This document shows, one piece after another, positions 3,397 to 16,802 of a stretch of 56,293 nucleotides of DNA. The first letter of the stretch is position 1; every line of letters starts with the position of its first letter. Source of the DNA: Planctomycetia bacterium (GTDB lineage Bacteria; Planctomycetota; Planctomycetia; Pirellulales; UBA1268); assembly GCA_021414115.1 (NCBI GenBank), contig JAIOPD010000086.1, positions 1 to 56,293 of the forward strand, written 5' to 3'. The notes beneath the pieces are model-generated. The model was not told the origin of the DNA. It worked only from the letters and a program-made list of their open reading frames with translations, and did no database searches. The position numbers were made by a program, and so were the translations under genes.

Positions 3397-4626
3397 CTAC
3401 CTCGGCTTCCGTTTGCTGAGCTGCGATGAATGGTGATCGCCCTTCGTGTCTGGCCGCTTGCCGGTCGCCGGCTTCGCCGGCTTCGCGGTCGCAGGGGGCT
3501 TCTTCGCCGCCGGCTTCTCGGGCTCGGGGGCGGGAGCCATCTGCGGCTTGATCGTCAACGGCTTGCCGACGTTGGGTTTGACCACGAACGGCTTCGGTCC
3601 GGGCTTCCCATCGGCCGTCTTCTTGGGGCCGGAGCCAGCCGGCGGCATTGGCGTCTTACCGGCGGGTCGCGCGGCCGCCTGGGGGCCGGCGGGCCGGTGT
3701 TCCTCGGCGGCCAGGCGGGCGGCTTCGGCTGCCCGCAGCCCTTCCTTGCCCGCCGGAGGCGGCGGAGGCACGGGCGCGGGAAGCGGCTCACCACGTTTGG
3801 GCATCCGGTCCTTGAGCGCCGACGGATTCACCGCCTGCACGATCTTCTTCACCGTCGCCCCGTGGAGGTTGGTGAGGACGTCGATGCCGAACTGGTGGAG
3901 TTGGGTGCTGAACTCGATCCCGGACTTCTTGCCGATCAGCCGCTCGAGGCCGGCCACCTTGCCGGAGTCGTACTCCTGGTGCGTGATCATCCCGCAGACG
4001 TAGAGGGCCGCCAGCGCGCCCTTGTCGAGCGGGATCATGTGGCCGCCCAGGGCCGTCGTGGCGACGTACTGCACGACGAACGGCGGAATGCCGTGGATGT
4101 GCTCGAGCGTCTTGAGCCCATGCGCGAGCGAATGCTTCTTCGCGTGCTCGAGCGAGAAGTTGTACGTCGATTCGAACACCCCCTGCAGCACACGGCGCAG
4201 CGAAAGGGCGGCGTGGGCCGGGTCAGGCAGGTCGTGAAGCATCTCCGCCAGTTCGGCGACGGTGGTCACGCGAATCTCGTTGAGATCGAACGAAGACTCG
4301 ATCAGTCGAGCGAAGGCTTTTTCGGCGACGTCGGCCGGAGCGTTCTCGAGGCAGCAGGCGATCAGCACTTGATCGAGCAGCGGCCGGTTCGTATTCGGCG
4401 TGAACGGCTTGTACTGGGCCTTGAGCGCCTTGGCGAGCTTCGGGATGAGTTGCCCGCGTGGCGGAATCTTCTCCGGCACGGGCTTCGGAACGGGTTTCGG
4501 CGCGGCCGCCGCGGGCTTGAGCACCGGCTTGCCGGCAGCTGCTTTGGCCGCGGGCTTGGCCGCGGGCTTCTTCGGATTTCCGGCCGGCTTCTTGCCGCCG
4601 GACGATGGTCGCTTCGGTGCGGTCAT
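3397..4626 (-). CDS. Endonuclease III-like HhH-GPD fold protein with Lys/Pro/Ala-rich tails
   Basis: A 409-residue protein. Residues 1-50 are Lys/Pro/Ala-rich and positively charged. The core (about 60-265) is helical and resembles the endonuclease III (HhH-GPD) superfamily: PLLDQVLIACCLEN, LNEIRVTTV.ELAE.L and a hairpin region LEHIHGIPPFVVQYV followed by G.H.IPLDKG. The Asp of PLDKG falls where the catalytic Asp of Nth sits. The Lys of Nth (in VGRKTA) is replaced in IPPFVV, and no Cys-rich iron-sulfur motif is present. The C-terminal 120 residues are again Pro/Ala/Lys-rich. Its ATG overlaps the rbfA stop by 4 nt (ATGA), so it is probably translationally coupled to a transcription/translation operon. 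Nucleic-acid binding is likely; glycosylase activity is doubtful. Confidence 0.65.
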   Translation of the reverse strand: MTAPKRPSSGGKKPAGNPKKPAAKPAAKAAAGKPVLKPAAAAPKPVPKPVPEKIPPRGQLIPKLAKALKAQYKPFTPNTNRPLLDQVLIACCLENAPADVAEKAFARLIESSFDLNEIRVTTVAELAEMLHDLPDPAHAALSLRRVLQGVFESTYNFSLEHAKKHSLAHGLKTLEHIHGIPPFVVQYVATTALGGHMIPLDKGALAALYVCGMITHQEYDSGKVAGLERLIGKKSGIEFSTQLHQFGIDVLTNLHGATVKKIVQAVNPSALKDRMPKRGEPLPAPVPPPPPAGKEGLRAAEAARLAAEEHRPAGPQAAARPAGKTPMPPAGSGPKKTADGKPGPKPFVVKPNVGKPLTIKPQMAPAPEPEKPAAKKPPATAKPAKPATGKRPDTKGDHHSSQLSKRKPR

Positions 4627-5030
4627 GCGTCGTCCTGTGGTTGCTCCCCGGAATGATCGTCTGGCTGATGGTGGTCGGCCGCTGTCGTTGCCGGCAGCAC
4701 CTCACTGAGCATGCGGGCGATCTCGATCGACTTCTTGACGCCGCCGTCCAGTTCGAACCGCAGCCGTGGCGTGTACCGCGTCTCGATCCGGTCGGCGATC
4801 CGCGACTGGAGAAATCCTGCCGAGCGACCCAGCCCCTGGAGCGCCAGTTTTTCCCGAGCAGGTCCACCCATGATCGAAACGTGCACCGTGGCCGACCGCA
4901 TGTCAGGGGCCATTTCCACCCGCGTGACGGTCACGTCGCGTACCCGCGGGTCGCGCACTTCTGTGAGGATGGCCATGCTCACCACCTCTCGCACCGCCTC
5001 GGCCGCTTTCAGGAGTCGTCGTGTGCTCAC
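4623..5030 (-). CDS. rbfA: Ribosome-binding factor A
   Basis: 135 residues from GTG 5030. RbfA is a KH-fold protein that binds the 30S subunit and helps 16S rRNA 5'-end maturation. The sequence shows the family core: DPR...VTVTRVEM.PD...A.V.VS, LQ...G.....I..RI..R.TP.L.FE.D. The longer open frame upstream lies inside infB and has no family similarity, so GTG 5030 was chosen. It overlaps the infB stop by 4 nt (GTGA), and its own stop overlaps the next ATG. The C-terminus is short and His/Asp-rich. Confidence 0.93.
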   Translation of the reverse strand: MSTRRLLKAAEAVREVVSMAILTEVRDPRVRDVTVTRVEMAPDMRSATVHVSIMGGPAREKLALQGLGRSAGFLQSRIADRIETRYTPRLRFELDGGVKKSIEIARMLSEVLPATTAADHHQPDDHSGEQPQDDA

Positions 5031-7669
5031 GAGAGCGTCCGCGCGAATTCCTCGACGCGATAGCACTCGAGGATGTCGCCCTCCTTGACGTCGTTGAATC
5101 CCGCCAGTTTGATGCCGCATTCGAGGCCGTCACGAACCTCTCGGGCGTCGTCCTTCTCACGCCTCAGCGTCTCGATGCCGTAGTCGCCGATCACGCGACT
5201 GTCGCGGATCACCCGCAGGCGTCCGTTGCGGGCGATGATGCCGCCGATCACACGGCAGCCGGCGATCACGCCGAGACGACTGATGGAGAACGTCCGCTGC
5301 ACGACCGCACGGCCCAGATCGGTCTCCCGCTTCTCGGGAGCAAGCAGGCCTTCGAGTGCCTTCTTCAGGTCGTCGGTCACCTGGTAGATGATCTCGTAGC
5401 GGCGAACCTGCACACCCTTGTCTTCGGCGAGCGACCGGGCACGCTCGTCGGGCACCACGTTGAAGCCGATGATCACGGCGTCGGAGGCGTCGGCAAGCTG
5501 GACGTCGGCCTCGGTGATGCCGCCGACCGTTGCCTGCAGCACCCGCACCTTCACCTCGGGGTGATCCAGCTTCTGCAGTTCCTTGAGGATCGCCTCGATC
5601 GAGCCGCGAACGTCCGCCCGCAGGATGAGATTGAGCGTGGGGGCCTTCTCGGTGCCGAGGCGGTCGGCCAGATTCTCGAGTGTCACGTGGACCGGGGCAC
5701 CGGCGAGGTTGGACTGACGGCGGATATCGTTCCGCTTCACGGCCACCTCGCGGGCCATGGCGATCGATTCCACCTCTTGGAACCGGTCGCCTGCCCCCGG
5801 GGGCACATCGAGGCCGGTGACGAACACGGGCCGCGCCGGGCCGGCTTCCGTCACCTTGCGGCGGGTGAGCGTGTCGAACATCGACTTCACGTTGCCGCTC
5901 GCCTCCCCGCAGACCAGCGGATCGCCGATGTTGAGTGTGCCCTTCTGCACGAGCAGGCACGCCACCACGCCGCGGCCCTCGTGAATGGAGGCGTCAAGGC
6001 AGACACCGGCCGCGGTGCGGTCGGGGTTGGCCCGCAGGTCGTGGAGCTCGGCGATCGTGAGCAGCGTATCGAGCAGCGTGTCGACGCCTTCGCCAGTCAG
6101 CGCGCTGGTCTTGACGACTTCCGTCTCGCCGCCCCATTCGGTGGGCAGCAGTTCCGCCGCGGCAAGCTGCTGATAGACCCGCTGAACGTCGGCGCCCGGA
6201 AGGTCGATCTTGTTGATGCAGGCGACAATCGGCACACCAGCCGCCTTGGCGTGGCTGATCGCTTCTTCGGTCTGCGGCATCACACCGTCGTCGGCGGCCA
6301 CCACGATTACGGCACAGTCGGTGACGTTGGCGCCACGGGCACGCATCTGCGTGAAGGCTTCGTGGCCCGGCGTGTCGACGAACGTGATCGACTTGTCGTT
6401 GCGGTTGACCGTGTAGGCGCGGATGTGTTGCGTGATGCCGCCGCTCTCACGGGCCGCCACGTCGATGCCGAGAATCTTGTCGAGCAGCGACGTCTTACCA
6501 TGGTCGACGTGGCCGAGGAACGTGACCACCGGCGCCCGCGGCAGTTTTGCCGACGGATCCTCGTCGATCGCGTCGAATCCGGCGAGGAGATCCTTCTCGA
6601 GGTCTTCCGCCGTCTTGATGTCGAGTTGCACGCCAAACTCGGCAGCGAGCAACTCGACCGTGTCGCGGTCGAGCACCGTGGCCATGCTCGGCATCGTTTC
6701 CGTGCTGAAGGTCAAGAGTTTCTTGAGGACGTCGCTGGCCGACAAGCCGATCGCCTCGGAAAATGCCCGCACATTGCACGGCACCTGGATGGCCGCGTTG
6801 GTCTTCCGCGGGGCGGCGGTGGAGACGCCGGAGCCCTTGCGGGGCCGCGACCCGCGCCGACGACGGCTGGCGTAGTCGTCGTCGCCCATGCCGCGACCGT
6901 CGGTCCGCTTGCGATTCAGCTGCCGAATGGCACGTCCGCCGGGCGTGTCGTCCGCGGGTCCGCCTGCCTTGGAGGGCGTGCGGCGCGGCCTTACGCCCGG
7001 CTGCATCGGTGGCGGCACCGCCACCGGCCCACCACCCGCCGCACCGCGAAGCAGACCACCCGTGCGAGCCCGCTGGGCGTCGGCCGCCCTCTGCTGCTCG
7101 TGCTTTCGCATGTGATCGGCGAGCGGCTTCGCACCGCCAGCCTTCGCGCTGCGAATCGCGTCGAGCGGGAGTTTGACGTCGGGCTTCTGCGCGACTGGCT
7201 CCTGGGAAGCCGCCCGCGGAGTGATCGGCGCACGACCAGCAGCCGGCACGGGGGCGAGCTTGAAAGCGGGGCGCGGCACCGGCTTCGGACCATCGCCGCC
7301 CGGACGCACCATGGGCCGCGGCTTTGCTTCCGTGCCCGCGGGCTTGGGGGAAGCCGGCATTTCCGGCGGTCTGCCCTTTCCGCTCACGCCGGCGGGGGCG
7401 ATGTAATCTTCGCGCTTCAGCGTTTCCGGAGCGGCCACGGGCTTCGCCACCGCCGCAGGCGCGACGGGTTTGACGGGCGCTGCTGGGGCCGGCCGCTCAG
7501 GCGGCCGCGACTTGTTGGCGATGAACTCTTTGAGCTTGCCGACTTCCTCGTCGCTCATGCTCGCCAGCGCCGAACCCTTGTCCTGGATGCCGGCGCGCGT
7601 GCACAGCTCGACCAGCTCCTTGCTGTCGATCTTCAGTTCTTTCGCCAGCGTATAGATTCGGACAGCCAC
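5027..7669 (-). CDS. infB: Translation initiation factor IF-2
   Basis: 880 residues, starting at GTG 7669 with AGAGG upstream. The N-terminus has the IF2_N helical module ([21 protein letters not shown]), then about 300 residues of Pro/Ala/Arg-rich linker. The G domain carries G1 GHVDHGKT at about residue 386, DTPGHEAF and NKID. Domains II-IV follow, with a C-terminus ending in [15 protein letters not shown]-2 is the GTPase that brings initiator tRNA to the 30S subunit and promotes subunit joining. It lies 56 nt after nusA and is coupled to rbfA by a 4-nt overlap, the conserved nusA-infB-rbfA order. rimP is not upstream of nusA here. Confidence 0.98.
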
Positions 7670-7725: not shown

Positions 7726-9048
7726 TCACGATTCTGGAGAAACGTGCGGTGCGGACTCAGGTGTGACTTCCGCCACGCCTGCTTCCTCGGCCGCCGCCTC
7801 TTCTCCAGCAACGAGCGCCTCGGCGGCATCGGCGTCGGCCGTGGCCTTCGCGATCCGGTCCGTCTCCCGTTGCTTCCGCCGTTCGTCTGCCGCGGCAGCC
7901 TCGGCCATGCTGGCCCGCTTTTCCGCCTCTTCAACAATCGCGTCCACGGCTTCTGCGGTCAAGCCGCCCATTTCCATCAGATCCTCGGGCTCGATCACCG
8001 AGAGGTCGTCGTAGGAGAGGAAACCCTCGCCGACAAGCCGCTCCGCCACCGATTCGTCGAGGCCCTCGATCGACGAGAAGCCCGCGATCGCCCGCTCGAT
8101 CTGCTGGTCGAGTTCCTCGCGGGTCATGATCTCGATGTCCCAGCCGCAGAGCTTGCTCGCCAGACGGACGTTTTGACCGCGGCGGCCGATCGCCAGCGAG
8201 AGCTGATCCTCCCGAACCAGCACGATGCCGCGGCCGAGCATCTGGCAGAGGATGACTTCATCGACCTCAGCGGGCTGCAGTGCATTGGGCACGAGCACCT
8301 GAAGGTCGTCGTTCCAGCGGACAATGTCGATTCGCTCGCCGCCGAGCTCCTCGACGATGTTCTTGATGCGGTTGCCGCGGACGCCAACGCAGGCGCCGAC
8401 GCAGTCGATGCGGTTGTCAGAACTGATCACGGCTACCTTGCTGCGATATCCAGGCTCACGGGAGATCGCTCGGATTTCGATCACGCCGTCGGCGATTTCG
8501 GGAATCTCCTGCTCGAAGAGCCGCTGCACGAGCTGAGGACGAATCCGGGAAAGAATGATCTTCACCCGGCTCCCCACCTTGCGAACCTCGAAGATCGTAG
8601 CGCGGATCCGCTCGTTGGGATGATACGACTCGCCGGGGATCTGCTCGCTGCGCGGGAGGATCGCTTCCTGGCCGCCCAACGTGACGGTTGCCGTGGCGCC
8701 CTCGAAGCGGGCAACGACTCCCGACACCATCTGGCCCACCTGTTCCTCGAACTCGTCGTGGATCGAATCCCGCTCCGCTTCGCGGATCTTCTGGATGATC
8801 ACCTGCTTGGCCGTTTGGGCGCCGATGCGGCCCGAGAGTTCGGCCGTGTCGAGCGGCTGACCGTCGTGCGTGCCGCTGACCGTGCCGTCGGTGCGATCGA
8901 TGGAGACGGTGACCTGGGATGTCTCGCCGTATTGCCGCGTGAGGGCCGTGACCAAGGCTGCTTCGATGGCCTGGAACACGATCTCCTTGTCGATGTTCTT
9001 GTCGCGGTGGATCGCGTCGACGATGCGGAGGATTTCTTCGGGCTTCAT
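7726..9048 (-). CDS. nusA: Transcription termination/antitermination protein NusA
   Basis: 440 residues. The order is NusA N-terminal domain ([22 protein letters not shown]), S1 domain (about 130-200, [11 protein letters not shown]), two KH domains ([27 protein letters not shown] and [24 protein letters not shown]) and one HhH/acidic repeat ([21 protein letters not shown]). NusA binds RNA polymerase and controls pausing and termination. The tail after residue 380 is Ala/Glu-rich. The ATG has no strong Shine-Dalgarno. It is the first gene of the nusA-infB-rbfA run; a tandem 15-bp repeat lies about 90 nt upstream. Confidence 0.96.
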
Positions 9049-9282: not shown

Positions 9283-10608
9283 TCAGGCCGAAGCCCTCCA
9301 CGAACGGACCACGAGCGAGCCCGCCTGGCCCTGGGGAGTGACCGACGTCGAGACGAAGACGTCGCCCGCGGGGTCGCCCCGGCGGGCCGGACGGATCGCG
9401 CACTCCTCGTCGGCGGTTTCGTGGTTCAGCAGTGGGAAGAGCTCGCCCTGTCGCAGCGCCAGGATGCTGCCCACGCATTCGACGAGGCCGCTGCCGCCGC
9501 CGAGGTTGCCGAAGTGGCTCTTCGCGGCGACGGTGGGAATCCTGCCGGCGGCACTGCCGAGCACGTCGTGCATCGCCTCGGCCTCGTCGCGGTCGCCGGC
9601 GACCGTGCTCGCTCCATGGGCGTGCACGTGGCCGATCCCGTCGGCCGCCACCGCCGCCATCTCGAGCGCCCGCCGCAACGCGTGGGCGACGGCCTGCCGA
9701 CGCCTGCCGACACCCGCCAGGTGGGTCGAGCACCGCGCCGCGTGACCGATGATCTCTCCATAGATCCGGGCACCGCGGGCCTGGGCATGCGAGAGTTCCT
9801 CGAGGATCAGCACCGCCGAGCCTTCGCCGAGCACCATGCCGCGGCGGTGCTTGTCGAACGGGCGGCTCCAGGTCGTGGGGTCGTCACTGCCGGTGGCGAC
9901 CTGCTCGCTCTGCAGCGCGTGGACCGTCTTCATCGGGTGCACCCGGGTGCCGGTGGAACCGGCGACCATGATGTCGGCCGCCCCGCGTTGAATGGTGACC
10001 ACGGCCTCGCCCACGGCGAGGTGGCCGCTCGCCTCGCGAAGCGTGAGCGAGTTGCTGGGGCCACGGAGGTCGTTGTAGATCGCGATGTGGCTGGCCGGCA
10101 TGTTGGGCAGGTATTTGAGCAGCCACAGCGGCGTGAGCTGCGGCATGCCCTCGCCTGCCCAGAGTTGGAAGTCGAAAAGCCCGTCGGCTCCGCGGCACTT
10201 GGCGACACTCGCGGTGAAGTCTTCGGGCAGCGTGAGCATGTAGTCGGAGCCGAACACACAGCCGAAACGTTCGGGAGGGTGGTGTGCCGCTGCATTGCCG
10301 CAGTCGTGAAGCGCCCGCTGGGCGGCGGCGACGGCCATCTGGCTCTCACGACACATCACCTTGCAGCCCTTGCGGATCGCCTTCTTCCGCTCGCCGTCGA
10401 GCGGGCCGAAGTTGTCGATTTCACCGGTAAAGCCGCGGGCCTCGGCAGCATGGTGCAGCGGGATGCCGGCCGTTGGGAACGCGTCGAGCGGCCCGACACC
10501 GCTCGTGCCCTCGACGAGCCCCTTCCAGAGGTCGTCGAGCGAGAGTCCCAGTGGGCTGACGACGCCCATTCCCGTGATCACCACCCGACGCGAAGTCGAT
10601 CCGCTCAT
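9283..10608 (-). CDS. Ketosynthase-like protein lacking catalytic Cys and second His
   Basis: A 441-residue thiolase-fold protein close to FabF in length and layout: N-terminal RRVVITGMGVVSPLG, middle GPSNSLTLREASG, then HAHGAS and AAKSHFGNLGGGSG. Where active FabF has the nucleophilic Cys (TAC.S), this protein has Glu192. The first His is kept (His331), but the second His position is Asn368, and the C-terminal SFGFGG gating motif is replaced by SVTPQG. Such changes are known in chain-length-factor subunits and in KSQ-type decarboxylases, which keep the fold but do not condense. The start has AGGA 7 nt upstream. It lies downstream of an intact fab cluster, 70 nt after a secreted-protein gene. 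A role as non-condensing partner or decarboxylase is inferred. Confidence 0.85.
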   Translation of the reverse strand: MSGSTSRRVVITGMGVVSPLGLSLDDLWKGLVEGTSGVGPLDAFPTAGIPLHHAAEARGFTGEIDNFGPLDGERKKAIRKGCKVMCRESQMAVAAAQRALHDCGNAAAHHPPERFGCVFGSDYMLTLPEDFTASVAKCRGADGLFDFQLWAGEGMPQLTPLWLLKYLPNMPASHIAIYNDLRGPSNSLTLREASGHLAVGEAVVTIQRGAADIMVAGSTGTRVHPMKTVHALQSEQVATGSDDPTTWSRPFDKHRRGMVLGEGSAVLILEELSHAQARGARIYGEIIGHAARCSTHLAGVGRRRQAVAHALRRALEMAAVAADGIGHVHAHGASTVAGDRDEAEAMHDVLGSAAGRIPTVAAKSHFGNLGGGSGLVECVGSILALRQGELFPLLNHETADEECAIRPARRGDPAGDVFVSTSVTPQGQAGSLVVRSWRASA

Positions 10609-10678
10609 GCACGTATCCTGTTCGTTGCTGGCCGGCCGCGGTCGCTCCGCGGTCGGGTCATGGCCATGGTGCCGTCGT

Positions 10679-11656
10679 TCACGGTCCGCCGCCGAGTCTG
10701 GGCTCGACGACGATCACCACGTCGCACCTTTTCACGTCCGACAGCAGTGCCACCGGCGACACATTTTGCGCAGGCACCGGCCAAGGCACCAACCCGATTC
10801 CGATGACGAGGGTCTGGTTGGCCGGCCAGCGGAACCGCTCTCCCACGCGGACGGCCGCAACCTGGGGCACCTCCACCTGCACCAGCTGCTGATTCACGGG
10901 GGAGGCGAGCGAGACCGCTGCCATCCGCTCGATCTGATCGATCCGGCAGCGGATCACGGCCTCGACGGCCGTCTGGTCGCGGGAGATGAGCGGGTGGACG
11001 TCGATCGCCAGGCCCTCGTCGCATGCCGACGACTGCGTCTGCCAGCCGGGCCAGACGTCGGGCCGGGGAGCGACGTCCTGCACATAGGGCTGCTTGCGGC
11101 CACCAGAAAGCGTCGCCGGCAGACCGTTGGCGGCGAGCACCGGGCCCGTCGGCAGTTCGTGGCAATCGGACCGGGATCGCAGCCGTGCCAGCACGGTGGC
11201 CGCGGTTTCGCGCTGCGCGATCCAGGCCTGCACGCCGGGCGTCGCCACGGAGATCGCCGTCAGCGCGGGGCGGGCCTCGGTCCGCCACGCCGGGCTGTCG
11301 AGGCCCAGCACGCGGACGGTGAAGCGATGCGGCGTGTCGGCCTCTTCGACGAACCGGGCCACGACCTCCTCGACCTTCGCCTGCATCTCGGGCGTATGAA
11401 AGCACGAGAGTTGCTCGGCGTCGGCCGAGAGCGAGGCGGGAGTGGCCCCGTGCCACGCCGGATAGCCGGTCTCCTGAAGGATCCAGTCAACGACGTAGCG
11501 CTGGCTTCCCGCACCGGCCTGCTTCACAAAGGGCCCGATCGCGTAGGTCTTCCAGACCTGCCCGTCACCGGCGGGAATCTGCGCCACCGCCGCGCACGTC
11601 GACGCGACGACTGCGACGCAGGCCACCGCGACTCGGGAGATCGATGACCGGAGCAT
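10679..11656 (-). CDS. Secreted protein of unknown function
   Basis: 325 residues from ATG 11656, chosen because a typical signal peptide follows at once (MLRSSISRVAVACVAVVASTCAAVAQ). The frame is open further upstream, but that part is translated from a dispersed repeat. The mature part has no motif I recognise. The C-terminal half (GRKQPYVQDVAPR, LAIDVHPLISRDQTAVEAVIRCRIDQI, QLVQVEVPQVAAVRV) has the alternating beta pattern seen in secretin-like domains, only a loose resemblance. It sits between fabF and the Cys-less ketosynthase and is 70 nt from the latter, so co-transcription is plausible; the functional link is unknown. Confidence 0.7.
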   Translation of the reverse strand: MLRSSISRVAVACVAVVASTCAAVAQIPAGDGQVWKTYAIGPFVKQAGAGSQRYVVDWILQETGYPAWHGATPASLSADAEQLSCFHTPEMQAKVEEVVARFVEEADTPHRFTVRVLGLDSPAWRTEARPALTAISVATPGVQAWIAQRETAATVLARLRSRSDCHELPTGPVLAANGLPATLSGGRKQPYVQDVAPRPDVWPGWQTQSSACDEGLAIDVHPLISRDQTAVEAVIRCRIDQIERMAAVSLASPVNQQLVQVEVPQVAAVRVGERFRWPANQTLVIGIGLVPWPVPAQNVSPVALLSDVKRCDVVIVVEPRLGGGP

Positions 11657-11754
11657 GGTCGGGAGCCTCGCGGGAAGGCGGGGACTGTAGGAAGAGTGCG
11701 GCGAGCGTACAAGCCGAGCTTGTTTCACGCCTGCAACGCCCTCGTGGCCGTTGC

Positions 11755-11973
11755 AGGCTGATGGCAGCCGAAGGGACAGCCGAGGTGTCTCTTGGCTGCC
11801 GGGCAGCATCCTCCAGCTGCTGCAGCTCCCGACGCTGAGGAGCCGGTCGGTGGGCACGCACAGAAGCCGGGAATGTTTGCGCCTCACGAGTGATGCCCAG
11901 TCGGCCAGCCGAGCATCCTGTAGCAAAATCCCCGGCTTCGAGCATGCCTACCGCCGGCGAACCAATCCGGCAC
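11755..11973. repeat. Dispersed ~217-nt repeat (family R2), copy A
   Basis: 219 nt that align almost end to end with 20461-20676; by eye most positions are identical with a few small gaps. Conserved islands include GCTGCCGGGCAGCATCCTCC, GAAGCCGGGAATGTTTGCG, TGTAGCAAAATCCCCGGC and GCGAACCAATCCGGCAC. The second and third can pair as an imperfect stem enclosing about 50 nt. It fills the gap between the fabF stop (11978) and the next start (11656). 11657-11754 holds nothing else recognisable. Confidence 0.75.
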
Positions 11974-11977
11974 GGCG

Positions 11978-13216
11978 TCAGATGCGGGCGAGCACCAGCG
12001 AGGCGTTGTGGCCGCCGAAGCCGAAGGAGTTGCTCATGGCGATATCGACCTTCGCCTGCCGGGCAACCTTTGGCACGTAGTCCAGATCACACTCTGGATC
12101 AGGCGTGTCGAGATTGATCGTCGGGGCGATCACGCCGCGGCTCATCGTCAGGGCGCACACGACCAGTTCGATGCCGCCGCTGGCACCGAGGGTGTGGCCG
12201 AGTTGGCTCTTGGTGCTCGAGACCGCGAGCCGCTTCGCATGCTCGCCGAACACCCGCTTCATGGCATTCGTCTCGGCCTTGTCGCCCAGGGGGGTGCTCG
12301 TGCCGTGGGCGTTGATGTAATGCACGGTGTCGGCGGCGACCGCAGCATCCTCGAGGGCCATCGCCATGGCGCGGGCAGCGCCCTTGCCTTCGTCATCGGG
12401 CTGGGTGATGTGGCCGGCGTCGCCGCTGGCCCCATAGCCCTTGAGTTCAGCGTAGATCCGGGCGCCCCGCTTCCGCGCGTGCTCGAGTTCCTCGATCACC
12501 ACCACGCCGGCCCCTTCCGCGAGCACGAAGCCGTCACGATCGACGTCGAACGGACGGCTCGCCTGCTGCGGGGCATCGGATCGGAACGAAAGCGCCCGCA
12601 TGTTTTGAAAGCCGGCCAGGCCGATCGGCGTGAGCGCCGCCTCGCTGGCGCCGGTGACCATCACGTCGGCATCGCCGTATTGGATCGCCCGCAGGGCGCT
12701 GCCGATCGAGTTCGCGGCACTGGCGCAGGCGGTGGCCACGGCGAAGTTGGGACCCTTGATCCCGTAGAGGCTCGAGACATGCCCGCTGGCCGAGTTGACC
12801 ATCAGTTTTGGGATCGTGAACGGCGAGACCTTGTCGATGCCCTTGTGGAGAAGCCGTTCCTCCTGGACCTCGAACTCCCAGAGCCCGCCGATGCCGGAGC
12901 CGATCACGACGCCGCAGCGGTAGGGATCCTCCTGTGAGAAATCGATCCCCGAGTCGGTGACGGCGTCCTTCGCCGAGGCGAGGGCGAACTGCGTGAAACG
13001 GTCGAGCCGCTTCAGTTCCTTCAGGGTGGCGATGCCCTCGTTCTCGGGCTCCCATGGCACCTGGCCACCGAACTGCACCCGATAGCCCGACACGTCGAAA
13101 AGTGAAATCTGCCCGACGCCGCTGTCGCCGCGCACGAGTCGATCCCAGAACACCTCGACATTCCGGCCCAGGGAAGTCACGACTCCCAAACCGGTCACCA
13201 CGGCCCGTCGCTTCAT
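11978..13216 (-). CDS. fabF: Beta-ketoacyl-ACP synthase II
   Basis: 412 residues from ATG 13216. This ATG has GGAG 6 nt upstream and begins MKRRAVVTGLGVVT; ATG 13231 would add five residues without a well-spaced ribosome-binding site. The Cys-His-His triad is complete: Cys164 in VATACASAANS, His in INAHGTSTPLGD and His in KSQLGHTLGASGG, with the C-terminal SNSFGFGGHNAS. FabF condenses malonyl-ACP with acyl-ACP in fatty-acid elongation. It follows acpP by 37 nt and ends a rpmF-fabD-fabG-acpP-fabF run. It contrasts with the Cys-less homologue 1.4 kb downstream. Confidence 0.97.
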   Translation of the reverse strand: MKRRAVVTGLGVVTSLGRNVEVFWDRLVRGDSGVGQISLFDVSGYRVQFGGQVPWEPENEGIATLKELKRLDRFTQFALASAKDAVTDSGIDFSQEDPYRCGVVIGSGIGGLWEFEVQEERLLHKGIDKVSPFTIPKLMVNSASGHVSSLYGIKGPNFAVATACASAANSIGSALRAIQYGDADVMVTGASEAALTPIGLAGFQNMRALSFRSDAPQQASRPFDVDRDGFVLAEGAGVVVIEELEHARKRGARIYAELKGYGASGDAGHITQPDDEGKGAARAMAMALEDAAVAADTVHYINAHGTSTPLGDKAETNAMKRVFGEHAKRLAVSSTKSQLGHTLGASGGIELVVCALTMSRGVIAPTINLDTPDPECDLDYVPKVARQAKVDIAMSNSFGFGGHNASLVLARI

Positions 13217-13253
13217 CGATCGCTCCGCCATCCCTGCTTCGCAAACCCTCGGA

Positions 13254-13490
13254 TTACGACTGGTGCTTTTCGATGAACTCGACCGCCTGACCCACGGTCT
13301 GGATCTTCTCGGCGGCGTCGTCGGGAATGTTGATCTCGAACTCTTCCTCGAGTTCCATCACCAACTCGACGGTATCGAGCGAGTCGGCCCCCAGATCCTT
13401 GATGAACGAGGTCTCGGGCGTGATCTGATCCTTGCTCACGCCGAGCTGGGAAGCGACGATGTCAATCACTCGATCTTGGACTGAAGCCAC
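13254..13490 (-). CDS. acpP: Acyl carrier protein
   Basis: 78 residues from GTG 13490, with AGGAGG 9 nt upstream. The family signature is complete: [17 protein letters not shown], where the Ser of DSL carries the 4'-phosphopantetheine arm, then an acidic helix [16 protein letters not shown] and TVGQAVEFI. It is the acyl carrier of fatty-acid synthesis. The open frame continues upstream, but that part is unrelated. It lies between fabG and fabF as in the common bacterial fab order. Confidence 0.95.
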
Positions 13491-13722
13491 CTTATGAATC
13501 CTCCTGGGGCCCCGCTGCGACCCGACCATTTCAAGGGCGGCGTGTAGGGCAGGGCGTTCTGACGATCTTGGCGGCAGCCCTCCGAGGCTGCGCACCTTAC
13601 CTGGGTTGTTGTCGAAGATATACCCGCTTTCGGCCGCACGTGTCCAGCCCGGGAAAACCGGCCGGGGGATCACCTCCGATGGTGATCCGGTCTGGACGGA
13701 AGTCGTGAACAAAGCGGAACTT

Positions 13723-14505
13723 TCATCCGATCATGCCACCATCGACCACGAGCGTCTGGGCTGTGATGTAGCCGGAAGAGGGGGCAGCAAGAAACAGCAC
13801 TGCCTCCGCGATCTCCCAGGCTTCGCCCAGCCGTTTGGCAGGAACCCGCTTTTTCACCTCGTCGAGCAGGGCCGGGCCGAGAGCCGCGGTCATGTCGCTG
13901 GCAATAAAACCCGGGGCCACGGCATTGACCGTGATTTTCCGGCCCGCGAGCTCTTTGGCGACGGTTTTCGTAAGGCCCACCAGTCCGGCCTTGGAGGCGG
14001 AGTAGTTGGCCTGTCCGGGGTTGCCGATCAGGCCCGAGACGCTGGCCACGTTGACGATCCGGCCGTACCGCTGCTGCATCATCGGCCGGCTGGCGGCCCG
14101 CATGAAGAGAAAGGGACCGCGGAGATTCGTGTCGAGGACGGTGTCCCACTCCTCGTCGCTCATGCGGGGGAGGAGCGTGTCACGTGTTACGCCGGCGTTG
14201 TTGACGAGGATGTCGAGGCGGCCGCACTTTTCCACCACGTGGTCGATGACACGCTGGGCCTCTTCGGCCTTCGAGACGTCGCAGGGCACTTCCTCGACCT
14301 TCCCGCCGGCCGCGCGGATGCCGGCTGCGACCTGGGCGAGTTTGTCGGCGGAACGGGCCGCGATGGCGACCGTCGCTCCCGCGGCCGCGAGCGTCTCGGC
14401 GATCGCGCGGCCAAGCCCCTGCGAGGCACCGGTGACGAGGGCCACTTGGCCGCTGAGGTCCACCTTCAACTGCTTGCGAACCGCCTGCGCCGTTTCGTCA
14501 GCCAT
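13723..14505 (-). CDS. fabG: 3-oxoacyl-ACP reductase
   Basis: 260-residue short-chain dehydrogenase. The NAD(P) motif TGASQGLG is at about residues 25-32, NNAG at about 105, the catalytic Ser of NVASVSG at about 155, and YSASK (Tyr/Lys) at about 168. The C-terminal [23 protein letters not shown] pattern is that of FabG. It reduces beta-ketoacyl-ACP with NADPH in fatty-acid synthesis. It begins 45 nt after fabD. The 232-nt gap to acpP holds no gene that I can see; it may carry a separate acpP promoter. Confidence 0.95.
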
Positions 14506-14550
14506 GGCCGTCTGTCTCCGGAAAGGTCTGTGAATGCGTTGCGGTGAATG

Positions 14551-15513
14551 TCAGTCGAAGACACCGGAGCATGCGACGCCCCGATCGATCCGCTTCATGA
14601 GCCCGCGGAGCACGCGTCCGGGACCAACTTCCCAGATCGACCGCACGCCCGTGGAGAGGATGTATGCCATGGAGGCGTTCCATTCGACAACACCGACCAC
14701 CTGACGCGCCAGGAGCCGCCGGATCTCGTCGGGGTCGGTGTGAGGCCGGGCATCGACGTTGCTGACGACGGGAATCCTCGGGGTGCGGACCTGCGTGGCC
14801 GCAAGGGCCGCCGTCAGCCGCTCCACCGCCGGCTGCATGAGGGCGGTGTGAAACGCACCCGCCACCTCGAGAGGGACGCACTTGATCGCCCCGGCCGCCA
14901 CCGCCGCGGCATCGAGCCGACGGCAGGCCTCGGCCGAACCCGAGACGACAATGTTGCCGGGGCAGAGGACATTGGCCACCTCCAGCACGTCCCCATCACG
15001 GCATTCGTCGCAGAGGGCGGTCAGTTTCTCACGATCGACGCCGAGCACCGCCAGCATGCTGCCGGGCCGCTGCTCGGCACACTCCTGCATGCCACGGCCG
15101 CGGATGTCGACGAGCCGCACGGCGTCGTCGAAGTCGAGGGCGCCCGCGAAGACGAGCGCGGTGTATTCGCCAAGCGAAAGGCCGGCCGTGACGGTGGCGG
15201 CGTCGAGCGGATGGCCTTCGCGGGAGCGGAGCGTCTCGAGGGCCGCGAGGCTCGTGACGAGGATCGCGGGCTGACTCACGGCCGTGGTGTTGAGCCGTTG
15301 GGCGGGACCGCTGCGGCACACGGCGAGCAGGTCGTAGCCGAGGATCGCGGAGGCCCGGGAAAAAAGCTCGGCCGCCCTGGGCTGAGCATCGACCCAGTCG
15401 CCGGCCATACCGACGGCCTGGGCGCCTTGTCCGGGAAAGAGAATCGCCGGTGCGCCTGCATCACCCGGAGTCGGACCCGGAGCGGAGGCCTTGCCCACGT
15501 GACTCGCCCCCAC
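14551..15513 (-). CDS. fabD: Malonyl-CoA-ACP transacylase
   Basis: About 320 residues. The family motifs are FPGQGAQ near the N-terminus, the catalytic Ser in GLSLGEYTAL, QPAILVTSLA, the catalytic His in GAFHTALM and the C-terminal E.GPG.VL.GL. It transfers malonyl from CoA to ACP, supplying the extender units for FabF. Start choice is uncertain: GTG 15513 follows the rpmF stop by 4 nt and GTG 15498 is also possible; neither has a strong ribosome-binding site, which suggests coupling to rpmF. No fabH or plsX lies in this cluster. Confidence 0.93.
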   Translation of the reverse strand: MGASHVGKASAPGPTPGDAGAPAILFPGQGAQAVGMAGDWVDAQPRAAELFSRASAILGYDLLAVCRSGPAQRLNTTAVSQPAILVTSLAALETLRSREGHPLDAATVTAGLSLGEYTALVFAGALDFDDAVRLVDIRGRGMQECAEQRPGSMLAVLGVDREKLTALCDECRDGDVLEVANVLCPGNIVVSGSAEACRRLDAAAVAAGAIKCVPLEVAGAFHTALMQPAVERLTAALAATQVRTPRIPVVSNVDARPHTDPDEIRRLLARQVVGVVEWNASMAYILSTGVRSIWEVGPGRVLRGLMKRIDRGVACSGVFD

Positions 15514-15517
15514 TGGG

Positions 15518-15700
15518 TCAGGCTTCGTCTGTCTTGACGACGGTCTTGCCCATGTACGTGCCGCAGTTGCCGCATACACGGTGGGTCGGCACCGCCTTGC
15601 CGCACGTGGAGCAGAACGTCAACTGGCGGGGCGTGAGGAAGTCATGCGCCCGACGGGAACGGGTCTTCTGATTGGATTGACGTCGCTTGGGAACGGCCAT
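15518..15700 (-). CDS. rpmF: 50S ribosomal protein L32
   Basis: 60 residues, full length. It begins MAVPKRR.S...TR.RR and carries two CxxC pairs (CSTCG and CGNCG) 13 residues apart, the zinc-binding form of L32. L32 is a structural protein of the large ribosomal subunit. Linkage of rpmF to fatty-acid genes is a known bacterial arrangement. It is the first gene of the rpmF-fab run, 34 nt downstream of a plausible sigma70 promoter. Confidence 0.97.
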   Translation of the reverse strand: MAVPKRRQSNQKTRSRRAHDFLTPRQLTFCSTCGKAVPTHRVCGNCGTYMGKTVVKTDEA

Positions 15701-15733
15701 GGGTCACCTGAAACGTGGTCTGTGGAGCCCCAG

Positions 15734-15763
15734 AGAGTAGCCGCGGGGCAGGGGGGAGGTCAA
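15734..15763 (-). promoter_or_regulatory. Candidate sigma70 promoter for rpmF-fab genes
   Basis: On the - strand, TTGACC (15763-15758) is followed by an 18-bp spacer and TACTCT (15739-15734). The -35 is strong and the -10 weak. It lies between the ruvB stop and the rpmF start. Confidence 0.4.
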
Positions 15764-15782
15764 TCCGCCGCCGCAAAAAGCG

Positions 15783-16802
15783 CTAAAATAACTTCCCCTG
15801 ACCGACCTTCGGCGGGGCCCCCAGATGGTCTTCGCCCTTGGGGGTGATCCGCCGGCCGCGAGGCGTGCGGATCACGAGTTCGCACCGCAGAAGGTAGGGC
15901 TCGACGTCGTCCTCGAGCGTGTCCGACGCGGTGCTCATCGTGTGCGCGATCGCCTCGATGCCGACCGGCCCCCCGGCAAACACCCGTTGGATGGTCTCGA
16001 GATACCGCCGGTCGAAGCCGTCCAGGCCAAGCTCGTCGATGCCCTGCATTTCGAGGGCCGTCCGCGCGATGCCGACGCTCATCAGCCCCTCGGCCCGGCT
16101 CGTGGAGAAATCGCGGATCCACCGCAGCCGGTTGTTGGCCAGCCGGGGCGTACCGCGGCTGCGATGGGCGATTTCGTTGGCGGTTTCATCGTCCATAGGC
16201 ATCGAGAGCTTTCCGGACGAGCGGTGCACGATCGCGGCGAGTTCCGCGGGGGAGTAGTAGTCGAGGTGTTCACGGATCACGAACCGGTCGCGAAGCGGGG
16301 CCGAGATCAGGCCGGCCCGCGTGGTGGCCCCCACGAGTGTGAACGGCCGCAGCGGCATGTTGATCGTGCGGGCGGCCACGCCGTCACCGAGCGTGATGTC
16401 GATTCGGAAATCTTCCATCGCCGGATAGAGAAACTCCTCGACCGCGATCGGCAGCCGGTGGATCTCGTCGATGAACAGGACGGATCCTTCGGAACAGTTC
16501 GTGAGATACGGCAGCAAATCCTTCGGGGCCGCGAGAGCCGCGCCGCTGGCGATCTGGATCGTGGTGCCGAGTTCCCGGGGAATGCAGGTGGCGAACGTCG
16601 TCTTGCCGAGCCCTGGCGGCCCGTCGAGCAGGATGTGGCCGAGCGACTCGCCCCGCTTGCGGGCGGCATCGATGGCGATCATGAGCCGCTCGTGAACGGC
16701 CCGCTGCCCGATCATCTCCTCCATCCGCTGGGGCCGCAGCGCACGGTCCTCCGGTGGCGGCTCCTCGGGGGCCTGAATGCTGGGCTGACGAAATGATTCC
16801 AT
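15783..16802 (-). CDS. ruvB: Holliday junction branch migration helicase RuvB
   Basis: 339 residues from ATG 16802. Family motifs: LRPQRMEEMIGQ, Walker A GPPGLGKTT, Walker B LFIDEIHRL, sensor GATTRAGLISAPLRDRF with the arginine finger, and the winged-helix tail ending RTPRGRRIT. RuvB is the AAA+ hexamer that drives branch migration with RuvA during recombination. The usual GTPRIANRLLRR is written GTPRLANNRLRW here. It is oriented like ruvC-ruvA but 460 nt away from them, with a repeat-rich gap between. Confidence 0.97.
   Translation of the reverse strand: MESFRQPSIQAPEEPPPEDRALRPQRMEEMIGQRAVHERLMIAIDAARKRGESLGHILLDGPPGLGKTTFATCIPRELGTTIQIASGAALAAPKDLLPYLTNCSEGSVLFIDEIHRLPIAVEEFLYPAMEDFRIDITLGDGVAARTINMPLRPFTLVGATTRAGLISAPLRDRFVIREHLDYYSPAELAAIVHRSSGKLSMPMDDETANEIAHRSRGTPRLANNRLRWIRDFSTSRAEGLMSVGIARTALEMQGIDELGLDGFDRRYLETIQRVFAGGPVGIEAIAHTMSTASDTLEDDVEPYLLRCELVIRTPRGRRITPKGEDHLGAPPKVGQGKLF

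Follow-up and report, generated by a model that had tools for sequence, protein, structure and literature searches.

A ketosynthase homologue without the nucleophilic cysteine, encoded by a Planctomycetia bacterium of the order Pirellulales, is probably a catalytically dead KS-beta subunit of the chain-length-factor type, acting with an active FabF-like KS-alpha. The gene is carried on a contig of 56,293 nucleotides (JAIOPD010000086.1, assembly GCA_021414115.1) that was analysed over its whole length and is termed here the window. The proposed role is based on a fold that is kept while catalysis is lost, on strong conservation, and on relatives that are paired with active ketosynthases. The initial annotation had offered two roles, a partner subunit or a decarboxylase. 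The first is supported by the finding that, outside the family and order of the window, members of the same clade lie in tandem with an active ketosynthase (KS).

The open reading frame of the Cys-less KS starts with an ATG at position 10608 and ends with a stop at 9283 on the minus strand (Table 1). Both ketoacyl-synthase domains are recognized in Pfam (PF00109, 4.5e-34; PF02801, 4.2e-19). The top NCBIfam model is fabF TIGR03150, with 274.4 bits against a curated cut-off of 493.75, which is not reached; the intact FabF encoded upstream, whose presence had been noted initially, exceeds the cut-off. The protein is like FabF (KAS II) in fold, length, C-terminal Lys and sequence (33–34% identity to the neighbouring FabF in the alignment), but differs in the loss of the Cys, the second His and the gating loop, and in falling far below the curated score. 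At the nucleophile, ATAC of FabF is replaced by LREA, with Glu192 in place of Cys. The first His motif, NAHG, reads HAHG and retains His331 in this copy, whereas KSxxGH has become KSxxGN, with Asn368 instead of the second His. The gate SFGFGG is changed to SVTPQGQ. Thus the Cys-His-His triad is represented by Glu192, His331 and Asn368. These substitutions and their numbering agree with the initial annotation, and a check for a Cys elsewhere in the pocket found no substitute. Cys86 was considered as a replacement nucleophile and rejected: it is invariant in the Glu clade, yet sister paralogues of the Cys-less kind have Ser or Ala there.

Table 1. Coordinates of the Cys-less ketosynthase, its active-site positions and neighbours in the window, and of related genes on other contigs of the same genome
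Feature	Coordinates	Strand	Basis or remark
Cys-less ketosynthase (KS-beta-type), 441 aa	9283..10608	-	ORF; Pfam; AlphaFold2 model
Codon Glu192, KS nucleophile Cys position	10033..10035	-	FabF alignment; Glu in 67/67 orthologues; model
Codon His331, first catalytic His; variable among orthologues	9616..9618	-	His in 53/67
Codon Lys363, conserved KS lysine, retained	9520..9522	-	Lys in 66/67
Codon Asn368, in place of second catalytic His	9505..9507	-	Asn in 65/67
TPQGQ motif in place of FGFGG gating loop	9325..9339	-	Pro425, Gln426, Gln428 in 67/67
Secreted, weakly secretin-like protein, ~325 aa, between fabF and Cys-less KS	10679..11656	-	Synteny; weak TIGR02519 match
Intact FabF (Cys-His-His), possible partner	11978..13231	-	TIGR03150, 596 bits
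acpP, acyl carrier protein of core FAS; start codon approximate	13254..13508	-	ORF; synteny
fabG	13723-14505	-	ORF; synteny
fabD	14551-15579	-	ORF; synteny
nusA, downstream anchor of conserved neighbourhood	7726..9048	-	ORF; synteny
infB, beyond nusA	5027-7669		ORF; synteny
rbfA, beyond nusA	4623-5120		ORF; synteny
Two Asp-type Cys-less KS	L108 (own genome, C37) 10198-11463 and 15005-16276	opposite strands	~3.5 kb apart
Accessory FAS cluster FabZ-ACP-FabZ-KS-alpha	L109 (own genome, C27) 9818-12849		Counterparts in other Planctomycetota families
Genes of the C27 cluster	FabZ (9824), ACP (10571), FabZ (11049), KS-alpha (11557-12849)		

The unusual active site is highly conserved. Arg191, Glu192, Arg222, Pro425, Gln426 and Gln428 are identical in all 67 aligned orthologues, which are from Pirellulales; Lys363 and Asn368 are nearly so. 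His331 is kept in only 53, and the 14 that have lost it, close relatives included, carry Gln, Arg, Phe or Tyr. The neighbouring FabF of the same gene neighbourhoods has the nucleophile Cys in 47 of 47 cases. Therefore, Glu192 is a fixed trait of the family and not a one-off. Within the family, most of 72 genomes carry an orthologue, with 62–95% identity where it is full-length, and an orthologue is present in each of the 15 other genomes of the order that were listed with matches (E < 1e-178). The dN/dS of the Cys-less KS gene is 0.07–0.16, about equal to that of fabF. Purifying selection on the gene is strong despite the missing catalytic residues.

A predicted structure of the Cys-less KS displays the complete thiolase-like KS fold (AlphaFold2 from 50 sequences; pLDDT 91.3). 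This model superseded a first AlphaFold model from 22 sequences, which was poor at residues 163–190 beside the active site. A strand at 185–189 is followed by a helix at 191–207, and Glu192 is at the helix start, which is the place of the ketosynthase nucleophile. In a structure search with the model, FabF 1j3n was matched with Z 57.6 (rmsd 2.8 over 402 aligned residues) and the actinorhodin KS subunit with Z 56.9. FabF, actinorhodin KS and ishigamide KS are within ~3 Z units of one another, and the ranking does not discriminate between KS-alpha and KS-beta; no chain length factor chain is among the best 50 matches listed.

Phylogenetic trees were constructed with IQ-TREE (LG+G4, 91 tips) and FastTree (112 tips). 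Both place the Cys-less planctomycete ketosynthases, i.e. the Glu type, the Asp type and the tandem type, in one clade (UFBoot 96 and SH-like 0.98, respectively). The protein of the window falls in this clade, and among its 52 tips in the IQ-TREE tree there are 36 with Glu, 14 with Asp, one each with Ser and Asn, and none with Cys. C27-type KS-alpha proteins, named after the contig of the window's genome that encodes one, form a separate clade with Cys throughout (98). The two trees differ on whether the Cys loss is shared with, or independent of, that of Streptomyces chain length factors: in IQ-TREE the Cys-less clade joins Cys-bearing ketosynthases first (UFBoot 100), mostly members of tandem pairs, and the factors lie outside, whereas in FastTree it groups with the Streptomyces factors (0.989). 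Both Streptomyces factors in the alignment have Gln at the nucleophile position, but Gln is not found in all partner subunits, a reducing-type one (L192) having Ala. The initial view that Glu is unusual at this position applies in comparison with actinobacterial factors, which have Gln, but not within the planctomycete clade, whose members as a rule have Glu or Asp.

Six ketosynthases are encoded in the window's genome: FabF, two others with Cys (contigs C27 and C115) and three without. The Cys-less set consists of the Glu type of the window and two Asp-type copies on contig C37, which are ~43% identical to it. An HpnA/SdmB-like SDR (13885-15000) is encoded between the two Asp-type genes. In a sample of the phylum, nine loci from further families or orders (L150, L152, L154, L156, L159, L160, L177, L178 and L179) have the gene of a Cys-less KS immediately next to that of an active KS, and the active member has the C27 enzyme as its closest relative in the window's genome. 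The KS-beta gene is upstream of that for KS-alpha; the two overlap by 4 bases in L159, and the other measured gaps are 22–152 bases. These clusters contain a FabZ-like dehydratase, an ACP of ~130 aa, FabG in some, a second FabZ-like dehydratase, KS-beta and KS-alpha. The C27 cluster of the window's genome has the FabZ-ACP-FabZ-KS-alpha arrangement with no KS-beta gene, and the natural reading is therefore that KS-beta genes may have left the accessory cluster in this lineage. Coupling to a KS-alpha gene is seen in nine related loci; in the window itself, a single gene separates the Cys-less KS from an intact fabF, and there is no linkage to the C27-type KS-alpha. The C27 cluster was also compared with the very-long-chain acpXL cluster of rhizobia, and no relationship is claimed: the C27 ACP scores 45.8 bits, far below the 83-bit cut-off of the ACP model PRK06508, and the acpXL paper that was checked has no description of the FabF2XL active site.

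Other ketosynthase groupings were also observed. A more distant planctomycete has four ketosynthases in one stretch (L176, 885-9300), of which two lack the nucleophile Cys. On contig C115 of the window's genome, genes for an ACP, for a short KS-like protein and for an active KS follow one another on the minus strand (L110, 7949-10655), an arrangement resembling the aryl-polyene-type KS/partner set. Tandem ketosynthases with Cys in both members are found in L157, L158 and L174, and possibly represent the ancestral state of the pair.

The Cys-less KS would probably heterodimerise with an active FabF-like KS-alpha. The KS-beta would line the acyl tunnel on its far side and form part of the surface to which ACP docks, and would thereby set which chain is made; the KS-alpha would perform the condensation. 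In ancestors, an accessory type II FAS cluster (FabZ1-ACP-FabZ2-KS-beta-KS-alpha) would have encoded KS-beta next to a dedicated KS-alpha of planctomycetes. The KS-beta genes would then have left the cluster in Pirellulales and related Planctomycetia, with the Glu lineage settling between fabF and nusA and other lineages, such as the Asp type of the window's genome, elsewhere. As the tandem relatives pair with C27-type ketosynthases, the KS-alpha on contig C27 appears to be the most likely partner, and FabF, with its fixed proximity to the Cys-less KS, the second choice. Perhaps one KS-alpha is common to several interchangeable, separately encoded carboxylate KS-betas (Glu, Asp and Asp in the window's genome) in an essential second type II FAS of planctomycetes, and a partner swap selects the acyl product; this extension is tentative and carries a low probability.

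The gene order fabD-fabG-acpP-fabF-(secretin-like)-Cys-less KS-nusA-infB-rbfA is kept through Pirellulales, although its most distant representatives show losses. The secretin-like protein has no Pfam match and is a syntenic companion for which no direct role is proposed. Across Pirellulales its gene nearly always separates fabF from the Cys-less KS; in L095 and L097, with neither fabF nor nusA nearby, it still adjoins the KS.

This conserved order raises the question of whether the Cys-less KS partners the adjacent housekeeping FabF and not an accessory KS-alpha, with the heterodimer retuning the chain length of core fatty acids. The stable neighbour in the window's own order is indeed fabF and not a C27-type KS-alpha gene, and in other Planctomycetia (L145, and L224 of Planctopirus limnophila) fabF is found just upstream of the Glu-type KS, both being upstream of nusA-infB. 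However, the partner in the nine tandem loci is of the C27 type and not FabF, and several Pirellulales loci (L094–L098 and L101) have no fabF within ~6 kb beside the Glu-type KS. A FabF partnership, which the initial annotation implied, is thus possible but rather unlikely, the tandem arrangements favouring a different active KS on another contig. Less likely still is a stand-alone homodimeric protein with a KS fold and a new activity via Glu192, e.g. acyl binding, transfer or cyclisation. A specific pocket is suggested by the protein's own invariant residues (Arg191-Glu192, Arg222 and the Pro-Gln-x-Gln motif), and a partner subunit, AmcG, has been proposed to cyclise and not to set chain length (PMC10698177). 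On the other hand, the relatives of the Cys-less KS are paired with active ketosynthases, and the wider clade sometimes has Asp, Ser or Asn at the position of Glu192, a variation more in keeping with a non-catalytic filler than with a catalytic acid.

The decarboxylase initially offered as the other role would be a KSQ-like one, acting on malonyl-ACP to provide starter units. KSQ loading decarboxylases have Gln for Cys and are expected to have both His, as decarboxylation by a KS requires the two catalytic His residues. The Cys-less KS shares with them a polar residue in place of Cys, it retains Lys363 and, in the window's copy, His331, and the solved FabF C163Q and C164Q structures show that the fold tolerates a Cys replacement. 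It differs in being a stand-alone protein with Glu and Asn at the two positions, and the second His is replaced by Asn almost everywhere and the first drifts even in close orthologues. Since the catalytic His residues are not kept, a decarboxylase is very improbable, and this part of the initial annotation is not supported. The lost catalytic residues might also be taken as signs of a decaying pseudogene or an annotation artefact, but the frame is open, and this explanation is ruled out by the fabF-like dN/dS and the conservation among family genomes described above. The KS-beta partner role is preferred.

The odd active site itself is already known. Rattray et al. (2009) tabulated Glu163, His298, Lys328, Asn333 and Pro392 for Rhodopirellula baltica NP_866153 (RB4527) and Asp163 at the Cys position for NP_865682 (RB3714), and suggested, with ladderanes in view, that substrate or function might be distinct; a KS-beta partner role was not proposed (PMC2649909). 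The NP_866153 pattern is that of the Cys-less KS, and the two R. baltica proteins almost certainly belong to the same family. A literature search on RB4527 found nothing. Nor did the literature searched mention the invariance across the family, the tandem setting of KS-alpha and KS-beta, the slot left empty in the cluster of Pirellulales or a link to an essential gene set. Close parallels are the type II PKS chain length factors (actinorhodin KS/CLF 1tqy; ishigamide KS/CLF 6kxd), which also have a full-length KS fold without the nucleophile Cys; like the relatives of the Cys-less KS in the tandem loci, they are encoded in tandem with an active KS, along with ACP and dehydratase genes. The planctomycete proteins differ from these in having Glu or Asp and not Gln, in the position of KS-beta upstream of KS-alpha in tandem loci, in the Pirellulales gene being unlinked from its proposed partner, and in belonging to a phylum-wide, probably essential lipid system in place of optional polyketide clusters. 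ApeO-ApeC of aryl polyene synthesis is a heterodimeric KS with a non-catalytic partner, ApeC, that keeps only one half of the thiolase fold (PMC8358021). The system proposed here is similar in its putative heterodimer, its FAS-like cluster and its occurrence in Gram-negative bacteria, but the Cys-less KS retains both halves.

GH3-family ligases (PF03321) are encoded near two of the KS-beta/KS-alpha tandems (L150, 2275-4017; L156, 11220-12971). This group includes the lyso-ornithine lipid synthetase OlsH, and the proximity points to a possible loading of the acyl product onto an amine or a lyso-lipid. LpxC is encoded in the window's genome, on a contig other than that of the Cys-less KS, and no direct link of this gene to lipid A genes was seen in the genome. 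The title of Kerger et al. (1988), as cited in PMC3422733, refers to a high share of long-chain beta-hydroxy acids in planctomycete lipid A. Given the ligases, LpxC and this title, an outer-membrane acyl chain is no more than a reasonable guess for the product of the KS-beta system; the likely product would be the long-chain beta-hydroxy acyl groups of lipid A or of amide-linked outer-membrane lipids.

Genome G255, taken as Planctopirus limnophila, has exactly five stand-alone ketosynthases, two of them Cys-less: FabF, the Glu-type orthologue, a second Cys-less KS (Glu), a C27-type KS-alpha and one orphan. A transposon screen of this species describes a group of five KS paralogues, every one essential, and its paralogue grouping required comparable lengths (PMC10632474). 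In view of this length requirement, the five stand-alone ketosynthases are most likely the essential five of the screen, as judged from their number.

If the proposed role is correct, a conserved and probably essential planctomycete gene annotated as FabF would gain a concrete function, and at the level of annotation a planctomycete 'FabF' would often be a protein unable to condense. The unexplained accessory FAS of planctomycetes would be tied to the abundance of long-chain beta-hydroxy acids in lipid A, as far as this is given by the cited title, and heterodimeric ketosynthases would extend beyond optional polyketide clusters into core lipid synthesis throughout the phylum.
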